Positions 20,306 to 24,708 of a stretch of 45,028 nucleotides of DNA are shown here, one piece after another. Where the stretch lies: positions 1-45,028 of the forward strand of contig CACYLY010000010.1 of NCBI GenBank assembly GCA_902775355.1, given 5' to 3'. Source of the stretch: Oscillospiraceae bacterium (GTDB taxonomy: Bacteria; Bacillota; Clostridia; Oscillospirales; Oscillospiraceae). The number at the start of each line of letters is the position of its first letter. Within the stretch, counting starts at the first letter, position 1. A program made the translations under genes and the position numbers. The notes under the pieces were generated by a model, which ran no database searches, was not told where the DNA came from, and saw only the letters and a program-made list of their open reading frames with translations.

Positions 20306-20334
20306 TTGACATTGCAGGGGAAACTTGTTACAAT
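20306..20334 (+). promoter_or_regulatory. Consensus sigma-A promoter of the structured RNA
   Basis: TTGACA (20306-20311), 17-base spacer, TACAAT (20329-20334). The start is predicted near 20341. The perfect -35 and ideal spacing suggest high expression. Confidence 0.88.
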
Positions 20335-20340
20335 AAGTCG

Positions 20341-20670
20341 TCTCAATTGGATAGGGTCTATCCGAAGCAAGATAGCGACCGCCCCTTCTCGGGGCCAAGG
20401 CCACACGGACAGCCGGGTCGAATGCCGAATTCCGCAGGTGCGGCGGCAACTTCTGTTGCCTTATTGATTGCGTTAGGAGCGCAAGTTTTATAAGTTGGTT
20501 ACTATAAACCGATGCTTCAGAAGAGCATACAACTTGTGAAATGGTCAATAAGAGTAGTAAAAGTGTTTTGCTATATAGACTCTCAAACCCATTGAGATCC
20601 CGGCGCCGCGAAGAGACAGGCGCCCATGGGGTCACATCATAAGGACGTATGCCTTTGGCATACGTTTTTT
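20341..20670 (+). ncRNA. Structured non-coding RNA or leader upstream of potABCD
   Basis: About 330 bases between a consensus promoter and an intrinsic terminator, without a credible open frame. Visible pairings: GGATAG/CTATCC (20349-20363); GCCCC-TTCTC-GGGGC; CCGCA-GG-TGCGG; GGCAAC-TTCT-GTTGCC. A long-range eight-pair stem CTTATTGA (20460-20467) / TCAATAAG (20545-20552) encloses TTGCG/CGCAA (20468-20484). It also encloses a three-way junction: AAGTTG (20492-20497) / CAACTT (20530-20535) with two inner hairpins. Downstream lie TAGTAAAA/TTTTGCTA, TCTCAA/TTGAGA, and GGCGCC/GGCGCC inside ATCCC/GGGGT. It lacks signatures I know for RNase P RNA, tmRNA, SRP RNA or common riboswitches. It may be a stand-alone RNA (the raiA-motif class is one candidate to test) or a long riboswitch or attenuator for the polyamine transporter. 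Confidence 0.75.
20645..20670 (+). terminator. Intrinsic terminator before potA
   Basis: ACGTATGCC (20645-20653), loop TTT, GGCATACGT (20657-20665), then a U-run to 20670. It ends six bases before the potA ribosome binding site, so any transcription of pot from 20306 must read through it. Confidence 0.9.
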
Positions 20671-20687
20671 CTTTTGGAGGGGCAGGC

Positions 20688-21866
20688 ATGAACAAGATCA
20701 TCGAGCTGAAAAACATCACCAAGGCCTTTGACGGGGAAGTCGTTCTGGACAACATCAATCTGGATATTTACGACAACGAGTTTCTGACCCTGCTGGGACC
20801 CTCCGGCTGCGGCAAGACCACCACCCTGCGCATCATCGGCGGCTTCGAGAGCGCCGACGAGGGGGACGTGATCTTCCTGGGCGAGCGCATCAACGACGTG
20901 CCCCCCTACAAGCGCAATGTGAACACCGTTTTTCAGCGCTATGCCCTGTTCCCCCACCTGAACGTGTTTGAGAACGTGGCCTTTCCCCTGCGGGAAAAGC
21001 GGGTGCCCAAGGCGGAGATCAACGAGCGGGTCACCGAGATGCTGAAGCTGGTGGCACTGAGCGGCTTTGAAAAGCGCAGCGTCAACTCGCTCTCCGGCGG
21101 GCAGCAGCAGCGGGTGGCCATCGCCCGGGCCCTGGTCTCCAAGCCCAAGGTGCTGCTGCTGGACGAGCCTCTGGCCGCCCTGGACCTGAAGCTGCGCAAG
21201 GACATGCAGCAGGAGCTGAAAAAGATCCAGAAGGCTACGGGGATCACCTTCGTCTTCGTCACCCACGACCAGGAGGAGGCCCTGTCCATGTCGGACACGG
21301 TGGTGGTCATGTCCGAGGGCCGCATCCAGCAGATCGGCACCCCCGTGGACATTTACAACGAACCGGAAAACGCCTTTGTGGCGGACTTCATCGGCGAGAG
21401 CAACATCCTGGACGGCGTCATGCTGCGGGACAGAAAGGTCAGCTTCGCCGGTCACCTGTTCGACTGCGTGGACGCCGGCTTCGCCCCCAAAGAGCCGGTG
21501 GACGTGGTGGTCCGGCCCGAGGACGTGGATATCGTACCGGAGGAAAAGGGCATGCTGCGGGGCGTTGTCACCTCGGTGACCTTCCTGGGCGTGCACTATG
21601 AGATCATCGCGGATATCGACGGCTTCAAGTGGATGATCCAGACCACAGACTTCTGGGATGTGGATGATCGCATCGGCCTGTATATCGAGCCCGACGCCAT
21701 TCATATCATGAAAAAGTCCCAGTACTCCGGCATGTTCGGCGACTATTCCAGCTTCTCCATGGAGCTGGACGAGATCGGCGAGCTGGAGGACGAGAAGCTG
21801 GAGGAGATGGGCGAGTTCGTGGAGCCGGATGAGGACGCCGCGCCGGAAAGCGGGGCCGAGACATGA
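20688..21866 (+). CDS. potA: Spermidine/putrescine ABC transporter, ATP-binding protein
   Basis: The ATPase of the polyamine importer. 392 residues from the ATG at 20688, with GGAGGGG eight bases upstream. Walker [10 protein letters not shown] (37-45), Q loop FQRYALFPH, signature [15 protein letters not shown] (134-148), Walker B VLLLDEP (154-160), and the switch histidine in [15 protein letters not shown]-terminal TOBE-type domain and an unusually acidic tail (many Glu/Asp after residue 365) follow. potB starts inside its stop codon (ATGA). The polyamine assignment rests on the A-B-C-D gene order and the binding protein; the exact substrate is inferred. Confidence 0.93.
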
Positions 21867-22726
21867 GGAACAAAAACGCCGTCTCCGCCCGGGGCAGTCT
21901 GATCCAGCGCATGCTGCTCACGCCCTACTCCATCTGGGCGGTGCTGTTCATCGTGGTGCCGCTGTTCTTCATCGCCTTCTACGCCTTTACCGACAGCCAG
22001 ATGCACTTCACCCTGGACAACATGCGCAAGGTCTTCACCTACCGGGTCAACGCCGAGCATACCACGCCCTACTATGTGATGGTCTTCGGCCGCTCCTTCA
22101 AGCTGGCCGTCATCTCCACCCTGATCTGCCTGCTGCTGGGCTATCCCTTCGCCTATCGGATCGCCCACGCCTCCCCCCGGGTCCAGGGCATCCTGATCAC
22201 CGTGATCATGATCCCCATGTGGATGAACTTTCTGATCCGGACCTACGCCTGGATGGTCATCCTGCAGGACAAGGGCATCCTGAACGGCGGGCTGGCCCTG
22301 CTGGGCCTGGGTCCCATCCATGTGATCGGCACCGAGACCGCCGTCATCATCGGCATGGTCTACGACTACCTGCCCTATATGATCCTGCCCATCTACTCCG
22401 TGATGGCCAAGATGGACAACAAGCTCCTGGAGGCCGCCCGGGACCTGGGCTGCAACAGTCTCGGCGTGATGCGCCGGGTCATCTGGCCCCTGAGCCTGCC
22501 CGGCGTCATCTCCGGCGTCAACATGGTGCTCATCCCCTCCGTCAGCACCTTCTATATCTCCCAGAAGCTGGGCGGCAAGATGAAGCTCATCGGCGACGAG
22601 ATCGAGGAAAAATACGCCAACTTCGACTTTAACGGCGCCGCGGCCATCGCCTTTATCATGATGGTCCTGCTGCTGGTGGTCATGGCGCTGCTGCAGCACC
22701 GGGCCACCAAGCGGTCCGTCGCGTAA
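21863..22726 (+). CDS. potB: Spermidine/putrescine ABC transporter, permease PotB
   Basis: First permease subunit, 287 residues with six predicted membrane segments. The EAA loop that docks on PotA reads [20 protein letters not shown] with LPGV following. Motifs such as [19 protein letters not shown] are typical of PotB. Translation is coupled to potA by a four-base overlap. potC follows after 12 bases with AGGAGG. Confidence 0.93.
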
Positions 22727-22738
22727 GGAGGTGCCGGG

Positions 22739-23578
22739 ATGAAAACACTTTCCAGAATCTACACCGGGCTGATCCTGCTCTTCCTCTTCGCCCCCATCGT
22801 CATCCTGATCGTCTTCTCCTTCAACGGGGAAAACAGCACCGCCGTCATGACCGGCTTCTCCTTCCGCTGGTACAAGGAGCTGTTTGACAACGCCAAGATC
22901 CTGGAGGCCGTGCGCAACACCCTGCTGCTGGCCGTCTCCTCCGCCCTCATCGCCACGGTGATGGGCACCGCCGCCGCCGTGGGCATTTACCGCCTGCGCA
23001 GCCGCTACCTGCGGGCCGCCCTGGACACGGTGACCAACATCCCCATGATCAACCCCGATATCATCACCGGTATCTCCCTGATGCTGATGTTCGTGTTCGC
23101 CGGCCGGCTCTTCGGGCTGAACAATTCCCTGAACTTCGGCACCATCCTCATCGCCCATGTCACCTTCTGCCTGCCCTATGTGATCCTGCAGGTGCTGCCC
23201 AAGCTCCAGCAGATGGACAAAGCCCTGCCCGAGGCCGCCATGGATCTGGGCTGCACACCTCTGCGGGCCTTCTTCAAGGTGGAGATCCCGGAGCTCTTTC
23301 CCGGCATCCTCACCGGCATGATCATGGCCTTCACCATGTCGCTGGACGACTTCGTCATCAGCTATTTCACTTCCGGCCCGGGCTTCCAGACCCTGCCGGT
23401 GCTGATCTACAGCATGACCAAAAAGGCCGTCAAGCCCACCATCTATTCTCTGGCGACCATCATCTTCTTCGTGATCCTGGCGCTGCTCACCGTCACCAAT
23501 CTCATCGACAGCGATACTGACAAGGCGGTCAAGGAAGCGCGTAAAAAGAAAAAAGCAAAAAAACAGGCTGCTGCCTGA
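22739..23578 (+). CDS. potC: Spermidine/putrescine ABC transporter, permease PotC
   Basis: Second permease subunit, 279 residues with six membrane segments. EAA loop: LPEAAMDLGCTPLRAFFKVE followed by IPELFPGI. PotC-typical SLDDFVISYFTSGPG is present. The tail is very lysine-rich (ARKKKKAKKQAAA). potD follows after 20 bases with AAGGAGG. Confidence 0.93.
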   Translation: MKTLSRIYTGLILLFLFAPIVILIVFSFNGENSTAVMTGFSFRWYKELFDNAKILEAVRNTLLLAVSSALIATVMGTAAAVGIYRLRSRYLRAALDTVTNIPMINPDIITGISLMLMFVFAGRLFGLNNSLNFGTILIAHVTFCLPYVILQVLPKLQQMDKALPEAAMDLGCTPLRAFFKVEIPELFPGILTGMIMAFTMSLDDFVISYFTSGPGFQTLPVLIYSMTKKAVKPTIYSLATIIFFVILALLTVTNLIDSDTDKAVKEARKKKKAKKQAAA

Positions 23579-23598: not shown

Positions 23599-24708
23599 AT
23601 GAAAAAGCTGCTTTCCGTTCTGCTCTGCGCCGCCCTGCTGCTGAGCGCGGCCGCGATGCTCTCCGCCTGCGGCGGCAGCACCCTGACCCTGAACGTGTAC
23701 AACTGGGGCGAGTATATCTCCGACGGCTCCGAGGGCAGCCTTGACACCATCAAAGCCTTCGAGGCCTGGTATCAGGAGAATTACGGTCAGAAGGTCAAGG
23801 TCAATTACACCACCTTCGCCAGCAACGAGGACATGTACAACAAGCTCTCCAGCGGCGCCGTCAGCTACGATGTTGTCATCCCCTCCGACTATATGATCGC
23901 CAAGATGATCGAGGAGGGCATGCTCCTGCCCCTGAACTTTGACAACATCCCCAACTACGCCAACATCGACGAAAACTTCCGGGGCCTGAACTACGACCCG
24001 GAGAACAAGTTCACCGTCCCCTACTCCTACGGCGTCGTCGGCATCATCTATAACGCCAATGTTGTGGACGAGGCGGACGCGGTGGGCTGGGATCTGCTGT
24101 GGAACGAAAAATACACCGGTCAGATCCTGCAGTTCAACAACCCGAGAGACGCTTTCGGCACTGCCCAGTACAAGCTGGGCCTGGACGTGAACAGCACCGA
24201 CAAGGCCGAATGGGATAAGGCCTATGAGGAGCTGAAGAAGCAGGAACCGCTGGTCCAGAAGTACGTGATGGACGAGATCTACAACATGATGGAGATCGGC
24301 GAAGCCGCCATCGGCGTTTACTACGCGGGCGACTATTTCACCATGCTGGACGCCCAGGCTGAGGATGTGGATTTGCGCTTCTACCAGCCCGAGCGCACCA
24401 ACTACTTCGTGGACGCCATGTGCATCCCCAGCTGCTGCAAGAATCAGGAGCTGGCGGAGATCTTCATCAACTTCATGCTCTCCGAGGAACCGGCCATCGC
24501 CAACGCCGAGTATATCTACTACGCCTCCCCCAACTCCGTTGTCTACAACAGCCCGGAGTATCAGGAGGAGATGGGCGAGGACGTTATGGAGATCCTCTAC
24601 ATGGACGTGGACAACTTCAAGACCCTGTACAATCAGTACGGCTTCCTGAACCAGTCCAACGACATGCTCAGCTACATCTCCGAGCTCTGGCACAAGGTCC
24701 GCAACTGA
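23599..24708 (+). CDS. potD: Spermidine/putrescine-binding lipoprotein PotD
   Basis: Extracellular substrate-binding lipoprotein of the importer, 369 residues. The signal peptide ends in lipobox LSAC with the modified cysteine at C24. The mature part starts with a glycine/serine linker, then the PotD-type opening LNVYNWGEYISDG. Conserved blocks: YDVVIPSDYMIAKMI, YSYGVVGIIYN, GVYYAGDYFTMLD, and the late YFVDAMCIPSCCKN. Aromatic and acidic residues expected to hold polyamines (Trp/Tyr/Asp in NWGEY and PSDYM) are present. The operon ends at the hairpin 24729-24760. Confidence 0.94.
   Translation: MKKLLSVLLCAALLLSAAAMLSACGGSTLTLNVYNWGEYISDGSEGSLDTIKAFEAWYQENYGQKVKVNYTTFASNEDMYNKLSSGAVSYDVVIPSDYMIAKMIEEGMLLPLNFDNIPNYANIDENFRGLNYDPENKFTVPYSYGVVGIIYNANVVDEADAVGWDLLWNEKYTGQILQFNNPRDAFGTAQYKLGLDVNSTDKAEWDKAYEELKKQEPLVQKYVMDEIYNMMEIGEAAIGVYYAGDYFTMLDAQAEDVDLRFYQPERTNYFVDAMCIPSCCKNQELAEIFINFMLSEEPAIANAEYIYYASPNSVVYNSPEYQEEMGEDVMEILYMDVDNFKTLYNQYGFLNQSNDMLSYISELWHKVRN

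Follow-up and report, generated by a model that had tools for sequence, protein, structure and literature searches.

Riboswitches for polyamines have long been expected. The sole established class found in our literature search is the spermidine riboswitch derived from SAM-I, described as rare SAM-I aptamer variants that act as transcription-termination OFF switches upstream of speE, speB, and ldcC (PMC10853860). That 2023 report judged the evidence for earlier polyamine-riboswitch claims unconvincing and stated that further classes seem certain to remain. Two candidate cis-regulators of polyamine genes are described in PMC8632094: the odc1 motif, an alpha-proteobacterial hairpin with an 11-residue upstream open reading frame (UUG start by the main start codon) that acts on translation, and the potE motif, which is listed for Veillonella only and whose expression platform is given as not clear. 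The raiA motif/ModT (RF03072), a large structured RNA of Bacillota, is reported to act in trans and to have comFC and raiA as neighbors (PMC11706538). The name of Rfam family RF02440, "SpF59 sRNA (ldcC RNA)," traces to a pneumococcal small RNA (sRNA) catalogued as F59, SN20, srn235, or Spd_sr49, whose transcript is given as 318 to 327 nt long, with its own promoter and a Rho-independent terminator, between SP0915 and SP0916 (PMC3395615, PMC12323649, PMC2887815). SP_0916 is described as a demonstrated arginine decarboxylase (PMC7531197). An earlier paper guessed from a common short motif that SN20 might be an FMN switch, and a review table of pneumococcal virulence sRNAs places F59 under "Lung" (PMC4387999).

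We analyzed the RNA that precedes potABCD in the window, the whole 45,028-nt stretch of an Oscillospiraceae contig. We consider this RNA, the 5' leader of the potABCD transcript, likely to be a widespread polyamine riboswitch of the transcriptional OFF type. The ligand is probably spermidine, which would bind the RNA directly and lower expression of the operon. As in the SAM-I-derived spermidine riboswitch, control is predicted to be OFF by transcription termination ahead of polyamine genes, but the window RNA is larger, more widespread, and of different architecture. No SAM-family model matched in cmscan, either at the gathering cut-offs or with E values up to 10, a search under whose detection limit a variant could conceivably lie. 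Given this result and the different build, the RNA is a candidate new class within the known kind "riboswitch" rather than a categorically new kind. The "ldcC riboswitch" of Trichococcus (a SAM-I variant) has the gene name alone in common with the Rfam "ldcC RNA." Like the odc1 and potE motifs, the window RNA is a candidate cis-regulator of polyamine genes, and the descriptions of these two motifs set it apart from both. Its size and structure recall the raiA motif/ModT. That identity was rejected because the RF03072 model had no cmscan match in the leader to an E value of 10; there was none in the source genome either, where no positive control matched.

The features of the locus are listed in Table 1. 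Direct reading confirmed the promoter pointed out in the earlier note, with the -35 hexamer TTGACA at 20306-20311, the -10 hexamer TACAAT at 20329-20334, and a TG ahead of the latter. Promoter-like sites numbered 2 in 2.5 kb, where 0.5 were expected, and the promoter is kept in place in 27 aligned loci, taken as same-genus. Transcription should start near 20341. The resulting transcript (20341-20670) folded at -126.4 kcal/mol, compared with -94.6 kcal/mol (standard deviation, 5.75) for 100 dinucleotide shuffles (z = -5.5), so that the proposed structured leader of about 330 bases holds. A terminator is indeed present before the potA ribosome binding site; the gap between them is five bases, not six as first given.

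Table 1. Features of the leader and the potABCD operon, with positions in the window
Feature	Position	Strand	Basis or remark
Promoter TTGACA-17-TACAAT, extended -10	20306..20334	+	Direct reading; promoter-like-site count; conservation in 27 loci
P0 5' strand (GGGUCUAU...GCAAGAUA), aptamer closing stem	20354..20374	+	Minimum-energy fold; own-versus-permuted duplexes
P1-P2-P3 domain, RF02440 part	20376..20428	+	Rfam match, covariation
P1	20376-20380/20416-20420	+	
P2	20381-20385/20391-20395	+	
P3	20399-20401/20412-20414	+	
P4 hairpin GGCAAC/GUUGCC	20445..20460	+	Seen in alignments, placed by window fold; pairs uncounted
P5 long-range stem, 20461-20467/20545-20551, enclosing P6-P9	20461..20551	+	Alignment pair counts (without P9), fold
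P6	20469-20472/20480-20483	+	Inside P5
P7	20490-20496/20531-20537	+	Inside P5
P8	20497-20500/20507-20510	+	Inside P5
P9	20512-20515/20525-20528	+	Inside P5; outside pair count
Antiterminator 5' strand, P9 3' arm and P7 3' arm (GCAUACAACUUGUG)	20525..20538	+	Duplex tests, window fold
GAGUAGUAAAAG segment, strongly conserved junction; alternative hairpin P10 with 20569-20582	20552..20563	+	Alignments
P0 3' strand (UGUUUUGCUAUAUAGACUCU)	20564..20583	+	Minimum-energy fold; own-versus-permuted duplexes
Antiterminator 3' strand CAUAAGGACGUAUGC, overlaps terminator 5' arm	20638..20652	+	Duplex tests, window fold
Intrinsic terminator, stem 20645-20653/20657-20665 and U-tract 20665-20670	20645..20670	+	Sequence scan, window fold
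potA ribosome binding site GGAGGGG	20676..20682	+	Direct reading
potA, spermidine/putrescine ABC transporter ATPase, ATG 20688	20688..21866	+	NF043075, 566.1 bits (cut-off 550)
potB	21863..22726	+	Best match PotB (NF007044), under model cut-off
potC	22739..23578	+	Best matches spermidine/putrescine permeases, under their cut-offs
potD	23599..24708	+	Best match PotD (NF007048), under model cut-off

An Rfam search of the leader returned RF02440 at 20376-20428 with 66.9 bits (gathering cut-off, 37.2), covering model positions 1 to 54 completely, and by sequence the window RNA is a member of this family. Since the RF02440 entry describes a fragment to which no function has been assigned, the match removes the sequence novelty expected in the earlier note and leaves the functional question standing. 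The family has the Rfam type "Gene; sRNA," and its 54 modeled positions represent one sixth of the RNA, whereas conservation among homologues extends far beyond them, over P0-P9: about 230 nt plus an expression platform, which in many families of Bacillota would make up a leader acting in cis. The alternative name "ldcC RNA" hints that others had already noticed the neighboring gene. In the openly licensed PMC literature we found no paper tying RF02440 or F59 to polyamine sensing (such a statement may be in print elsewhere), and structured-RNA discovery papers checked for polyamine terms gave nothing on an RNA of this type. Weak Rfam matches to SR6_antitoxin, sau-6072, and Ms_IGR-4 (E up to 10) were far under their gathering cut-offs; they were dropped as identities, and their positions echo the terminator or a hairpin.

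RF02440 matched 63 of the 99 genomes of a search among relatives (own genome included), once in each. It was found in 55 of 61 genomes of the genus and in 41 of 391 of the class, and Lactococcus lactis also has a match. A second model, R1, represents the P5-P10 half without the RF02440 segment; its seed loci were found via RF02440, and it matched 99 of the 100 loci supplied, seed sequences included. In a sample of 398 genomes of the phylum, R1 matched 25 and RF02440 matched 18, all of them among the 25. The matching genomes carry 40 family labels (counted by eye), and a pattern scan of named genomes gave at least 118 stretches; among the matches listed are Paenibacillus, Bacillus, Neobacillus, Faecalibacterium, Blautia, Acidaminococcus, and Phascolarctobacterium, besides others. 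A phage or mobile origin was rejected because two exact patterns from the RNA found nothing in viral contigs.

The gene context was examined in 220 fetched loci, in 218 of which the RNA was located (L098 and L102, missed by the anchor search, are unclassified). The downstream search asked for five proteins only, namely, PotA, PotB, SpeD, SpeA, and carboxynorspermidine synthase, and 210 loci were assessable, the contigs of eight ending too soon. A polyamine gene lay downstream on the same strand in all 210, the match not necessarily being the very next gene. The first match was PotA in 97 loci, PotB in 1, SpeD in 47, SpeA in 47, and carboxynorspermidine synthase in 18. Matched genes start 175 to 643 nt from the anchor, and the loci are not independent, with 202 distinct downstream sequences among 217. 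Since the lowest identity was 52.5%, the PotA matches are not arbitrary ABC ATPases. In a check against NCBIfam and Pfam, the SpeD representative scored above the cut-off as an adenosylmethionine decarboxylase; the SpeA representative was above the Pfam cut-off as an Orn/Lys/Arg decarboxylase and had no NCBIfam match. The carboxynorspermidine synthase representative showed saccharopine-dehydrogenase Pfam domains and its sole NCBIfam match under the cut-off (418 of 800 bits). All 25 R1 matches of the phylum sample were likewise followed by polyamine genes, three of these genomes having been in the first set already. Seven of the 25 genomes were matched by R1 and not by RF02440, a pattern that would be unexpected for a single compact aptamer; the same genes lay downstream in these seven. 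As the downstream genes encode unrelated proteins, the RNA behaves as a module. One locus (L171) has an open reading frame, P-II-like by eye, between the RNA and PotA.

Covariation among homologues, proposed as a test in the earlier note, was found for P0, P1-P3, P6, and the alternative hairpin P10; it should be noted that the permutation tests and covariation counts were made without phylogeny, on short, conserved alignments of chosen representatives. In the outer pair of P1, 203 of 212 loci were paired (C-G in 89, U-A in 61, G-C in 47, and U-G in 6), and 9 were unpaired. Among 38 chosen sequences, P1-P3 showed changes on both sides in 63 cells compared with 20.8 after shuffling (score, 0.320 compared with 0.117). 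For P5-P10 without P9, 96.7% of cells in such a set of 38 were paired, and 8 pairs showed double changes (three in P6, one in P8, and four in P10), compared with 1.8 after shuffling and 2 to 4 with slid partners. The same sequences gave no double changes in P5 or P7; these stems are either almost constant or variable on a single side. P5 itself was paired in 98.5% of cells of 38 diverse sequences, and it is so nearly invariant that covariation is no test of the stem in either direction; isolated variants carrying compensatory changes were noticed by eye (L189). Of the eight-pair long-range stem first proposed (20460-20467 with 20545-20552), the seven inner pairs thus stand, whereas the outermost pair, 20460/20552, is not conserved, its 5' base being variable and its G nearly fixed.

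The closing stem P0, which pairs the 5' end with the UGCUAUAUAGACUCU segment, first became apparent when the leader in the window was folded to minimum energy. With 96 distinct 5' strands from 192 loci, own duplexes had a mean energy of -14.4 kcal/mol, compared with -11.3 kcal/mol for permuted partners (standard deviation, 0.24), and 0 of 2,000 permutations were as good. This result also holds within the gene classes. Covariation is seen in both P0 and P10 although they use one common 3' strand, and one of them may be an alternative state or wrong. P10 may be an alternative fold to P0; it had served as the closing hairpin in the R1 model and was demoted below P0 after the duplex test. The 5' end at 20344-20363 (GGAUAGGGUCUAUCC) can also fold locally into a hairpin, in competition with P0, and the UUGGAU...AUCC pattern of this end recurs in aligned loci.

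The core strand 20525-20538 is complementary to 20638-20652, which overlaps the terminator 5' arm. Each of 124 distinct core strands, out of 202, was paired with the sequence directly preceding its gene (at most 140 nt); the mean energy of the own duplex was -17.25 kcal/mol, compared with -14.23 kcal/mol for permuted partners (standard deviation, 0.23), and 0 of 2,000 permutations reached the own mean. Permutation within the gene class gave -14.69 kcal/mol and again 0 of 2,000. It is the average that is shifted: 32 of the 124 strands had their own partner among the top 5%, the median rank was 16%, and L031, L039, L048, L100, and L238 are clear examples. An earlier ungapped-helix test had separated the partners less, with mean scores of 15.9 for own, 15.2 for swapped, and 14.0 for shuffled partners; it was replaced by the gapped test, since small interior loops occur in many of the pairings.

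A strict scan detected terminators in 93 of the 124 representatives (31 were missed), compared with 11 of 124 shuffled sequences. In 89 of the 93, the predicted antiterminator reached into the 5' arm of the terminator; random placement would give 24.1. Swapped core strands still overlapped the arm in 74% of tries because the CUUG is nearly fixed. The position of the overlap is therefore partly explained by CUUG alone, and it is the energy test that carries the locus-specific signal. The carboxynorspermidine class, in which 2 of 9 real and 2 of 9 shuffled sequences had a strict terminator, stands apart; elsewhere, these computations predict an expression platform of mutually exclusive structures that share strands. 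In the window, the nascent state with P5 and P7 enforced came to -112.3 kcal/mol and that with the antiterminator enforced to -110.0 kcal/mol. The two differ by 2.3 kcal/mol before the terminator 3' arm is made, and afterwards the terminated state is ahead by about 16 kcal/mol. A ligand-tuned attenuator would be expected to show a balance of this kind.

We propose that the RNA switches between two states. In the aptamer state, P0 would close the ends around P1-P3, P4, and P5-P9, P7 and P9 would occupy 20525-20538, and the terminator would form, so that transcription stops before potA. In the antiterminator state, 20525-20538 would instead pair with 20638-20652 and RNA polymerase would read through. 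A polyamine, most likely spermidine as the common product of the uptake and synthesis genes, would stabilize the aptamer state. Because this state frees the terminator, ligand binding should turn the operon off, a sensible feedback. The common denominator of Pot uptake, SpeA decarboxylation of arginine, ornithine, or lysine, SpeD, and carboxynorspermidine synthesis is the supply of spermidine-type polyamines. Gene association, conservation, covariation, and a predicted expression platform are what one expects of a polyamine riboswitch class, and the polyamine-responsive attenuator, one of two options in the earlier note, gains strong support from the gene context, the covariation, and the modeled antiterminator/terminator anatomy. 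If true, this RNA controls whichever polyamine route a Bacillota cell uses, be it uptake or one of three synthesis genes.

In principle, the ligand of an RNA with this anatomy could instead be arginine, agmatine, SAM, decarboxylated SAM, or some other related metabolite. Arginine, ornithine, or lysine is the substrate of SpeA-type enzymes and SAM is that of SpeD, and the genes of both are among those behind the RNA. We regard such a ligand as unlikely, since potABCD consumes neither arginine nor SAM and the polyamine product is what the regulated genes have in common; the lack of a match to SAM riboswitch models speaks further against SAM. In addition, the source genome keeps the RNA on potABCD and gave no match for SpeA or SpeD (the genome is 87.5% complete and the search was made without a positive control), so that uptake, whose operon carries the RNA, may be the main route there. 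The exclusive pairings would equally serve a polyamine-sensing RNA-binding protein that picks the terminator or the antiterminator. More than 200 nt of conserved sequence and fold exceed what known attenuator proteins are generally known to need, and a protein-dependent attenuator appears very improbable to us.

As annotated in Rfam and in pneumococcus, the RNA would be a stand-alone sRNA acting in trans whose place beside polyamine genes is a coincidence, and the earlier note had offered a stand-alone RNA of the raiA, 6S, or OLE type as its other option. The RNA does have its own promoter and terminator, its relative is catalogued as F59/SN20/srn235, and there is one match per genome wherever it is present. 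We give this reading almost no credence: the placement upstream of and codirectional with polyamine genes has no exception in the 210 assessable loci or the 25 R1 loci, a pattern that does not support the stand-alone label of RF02440, and the antiterminator strand tracks the terminator. Nor did cmscan return a raiA, 6S, or OLE type match to an E value of 10. Attenuation coupled to translation of a leader peptide fares as poorly and was rejected. Open frames do cross P7-P10 in 131 of 194 loci, but those of at least 15 codons across P7 lie in one frame in 88 loci and in another in 80 (some loci having both), and 63 have none. Between the P5 3' strand and GAGU, sequence that is otherwise conserved contains a run of 1, 2, 3, or 4 A residues (2 in 162 of 174 matched loci), a single-base length variation at odds with a conserved reading frame. 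The initial view that the leader holds no real open frame was therefore upheld.

Under the riboswitch model, the terminated leader of about 330 nt would accumulate, which would explain why its pneumococcal relative was catalogued as an sRNA. F59/SN20 is of equal length class and lies directly before a polyamine gene; compared by reported length and neighbor, it fits a terminated leader product of this RNA. Published pneumococcal data are suggestive and mixed. In a ΔpotABCD strain, quantitative reverse transcription-PCR showed speA up 16.9-fold and speE up 14.4-fold with lower polyamines, and RNA sequencing in the same study is reported without a change in speA or speE (PMC8540371). Arginine decarboxylase protein was higher in a ΔspeE strain, whereas genes for transport and spermidine synthesis were expressed less once putrescine synthesis had been deleted (PMC7990898; similarly PMC10887117). 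Polarity on a common operon is possible. If our reading is true, the catalogued pneumococcal sRNA becomes a question of arginine decarboxylase control.

On balance, and with more reserve than for the switch itself, we lean towards an ancient, widespread polyamine-sensing class with a two-part aptamer of about 230 nt, of which F59 would be the terminated leader and whose sensor core would lie in the 3' half. The location of the core is suggested by loss of P1-P4 where P0, GAGUAGUAAAAG, and the antiterminator strand are kept.

Several individual loci depart from the common form. L242 and L245, and also L241, L243, and L244, are short or divergent; their P1-P4 domain is missing or unrecognizable, and the anchor was not found. 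Before speD or speA they still have a terminator-like hairpin and, upstream of it, the stretch from ACUUGUGAA to GCUAUAUAGACUCU; L242 and L245 have a P0-like stem by eye. In L004, L005, L007, L008, L016, L029, and L067, the R1 match is displaced relative to the RF02440 part and/or low scoring, which suggests insertions or decay within the RNA in some genomes. The part from P7 to the P0 3' strand is apparently lost in L076, which appears to be a natural deletion or an assembly fault; a terminator-like hairpin before potA remains. Outside Bacillota, a copy before speD was seen in a metagenome-assembled genome labeled uncultured Spirochaetes (L154), a case of either transfer or mis-binning.
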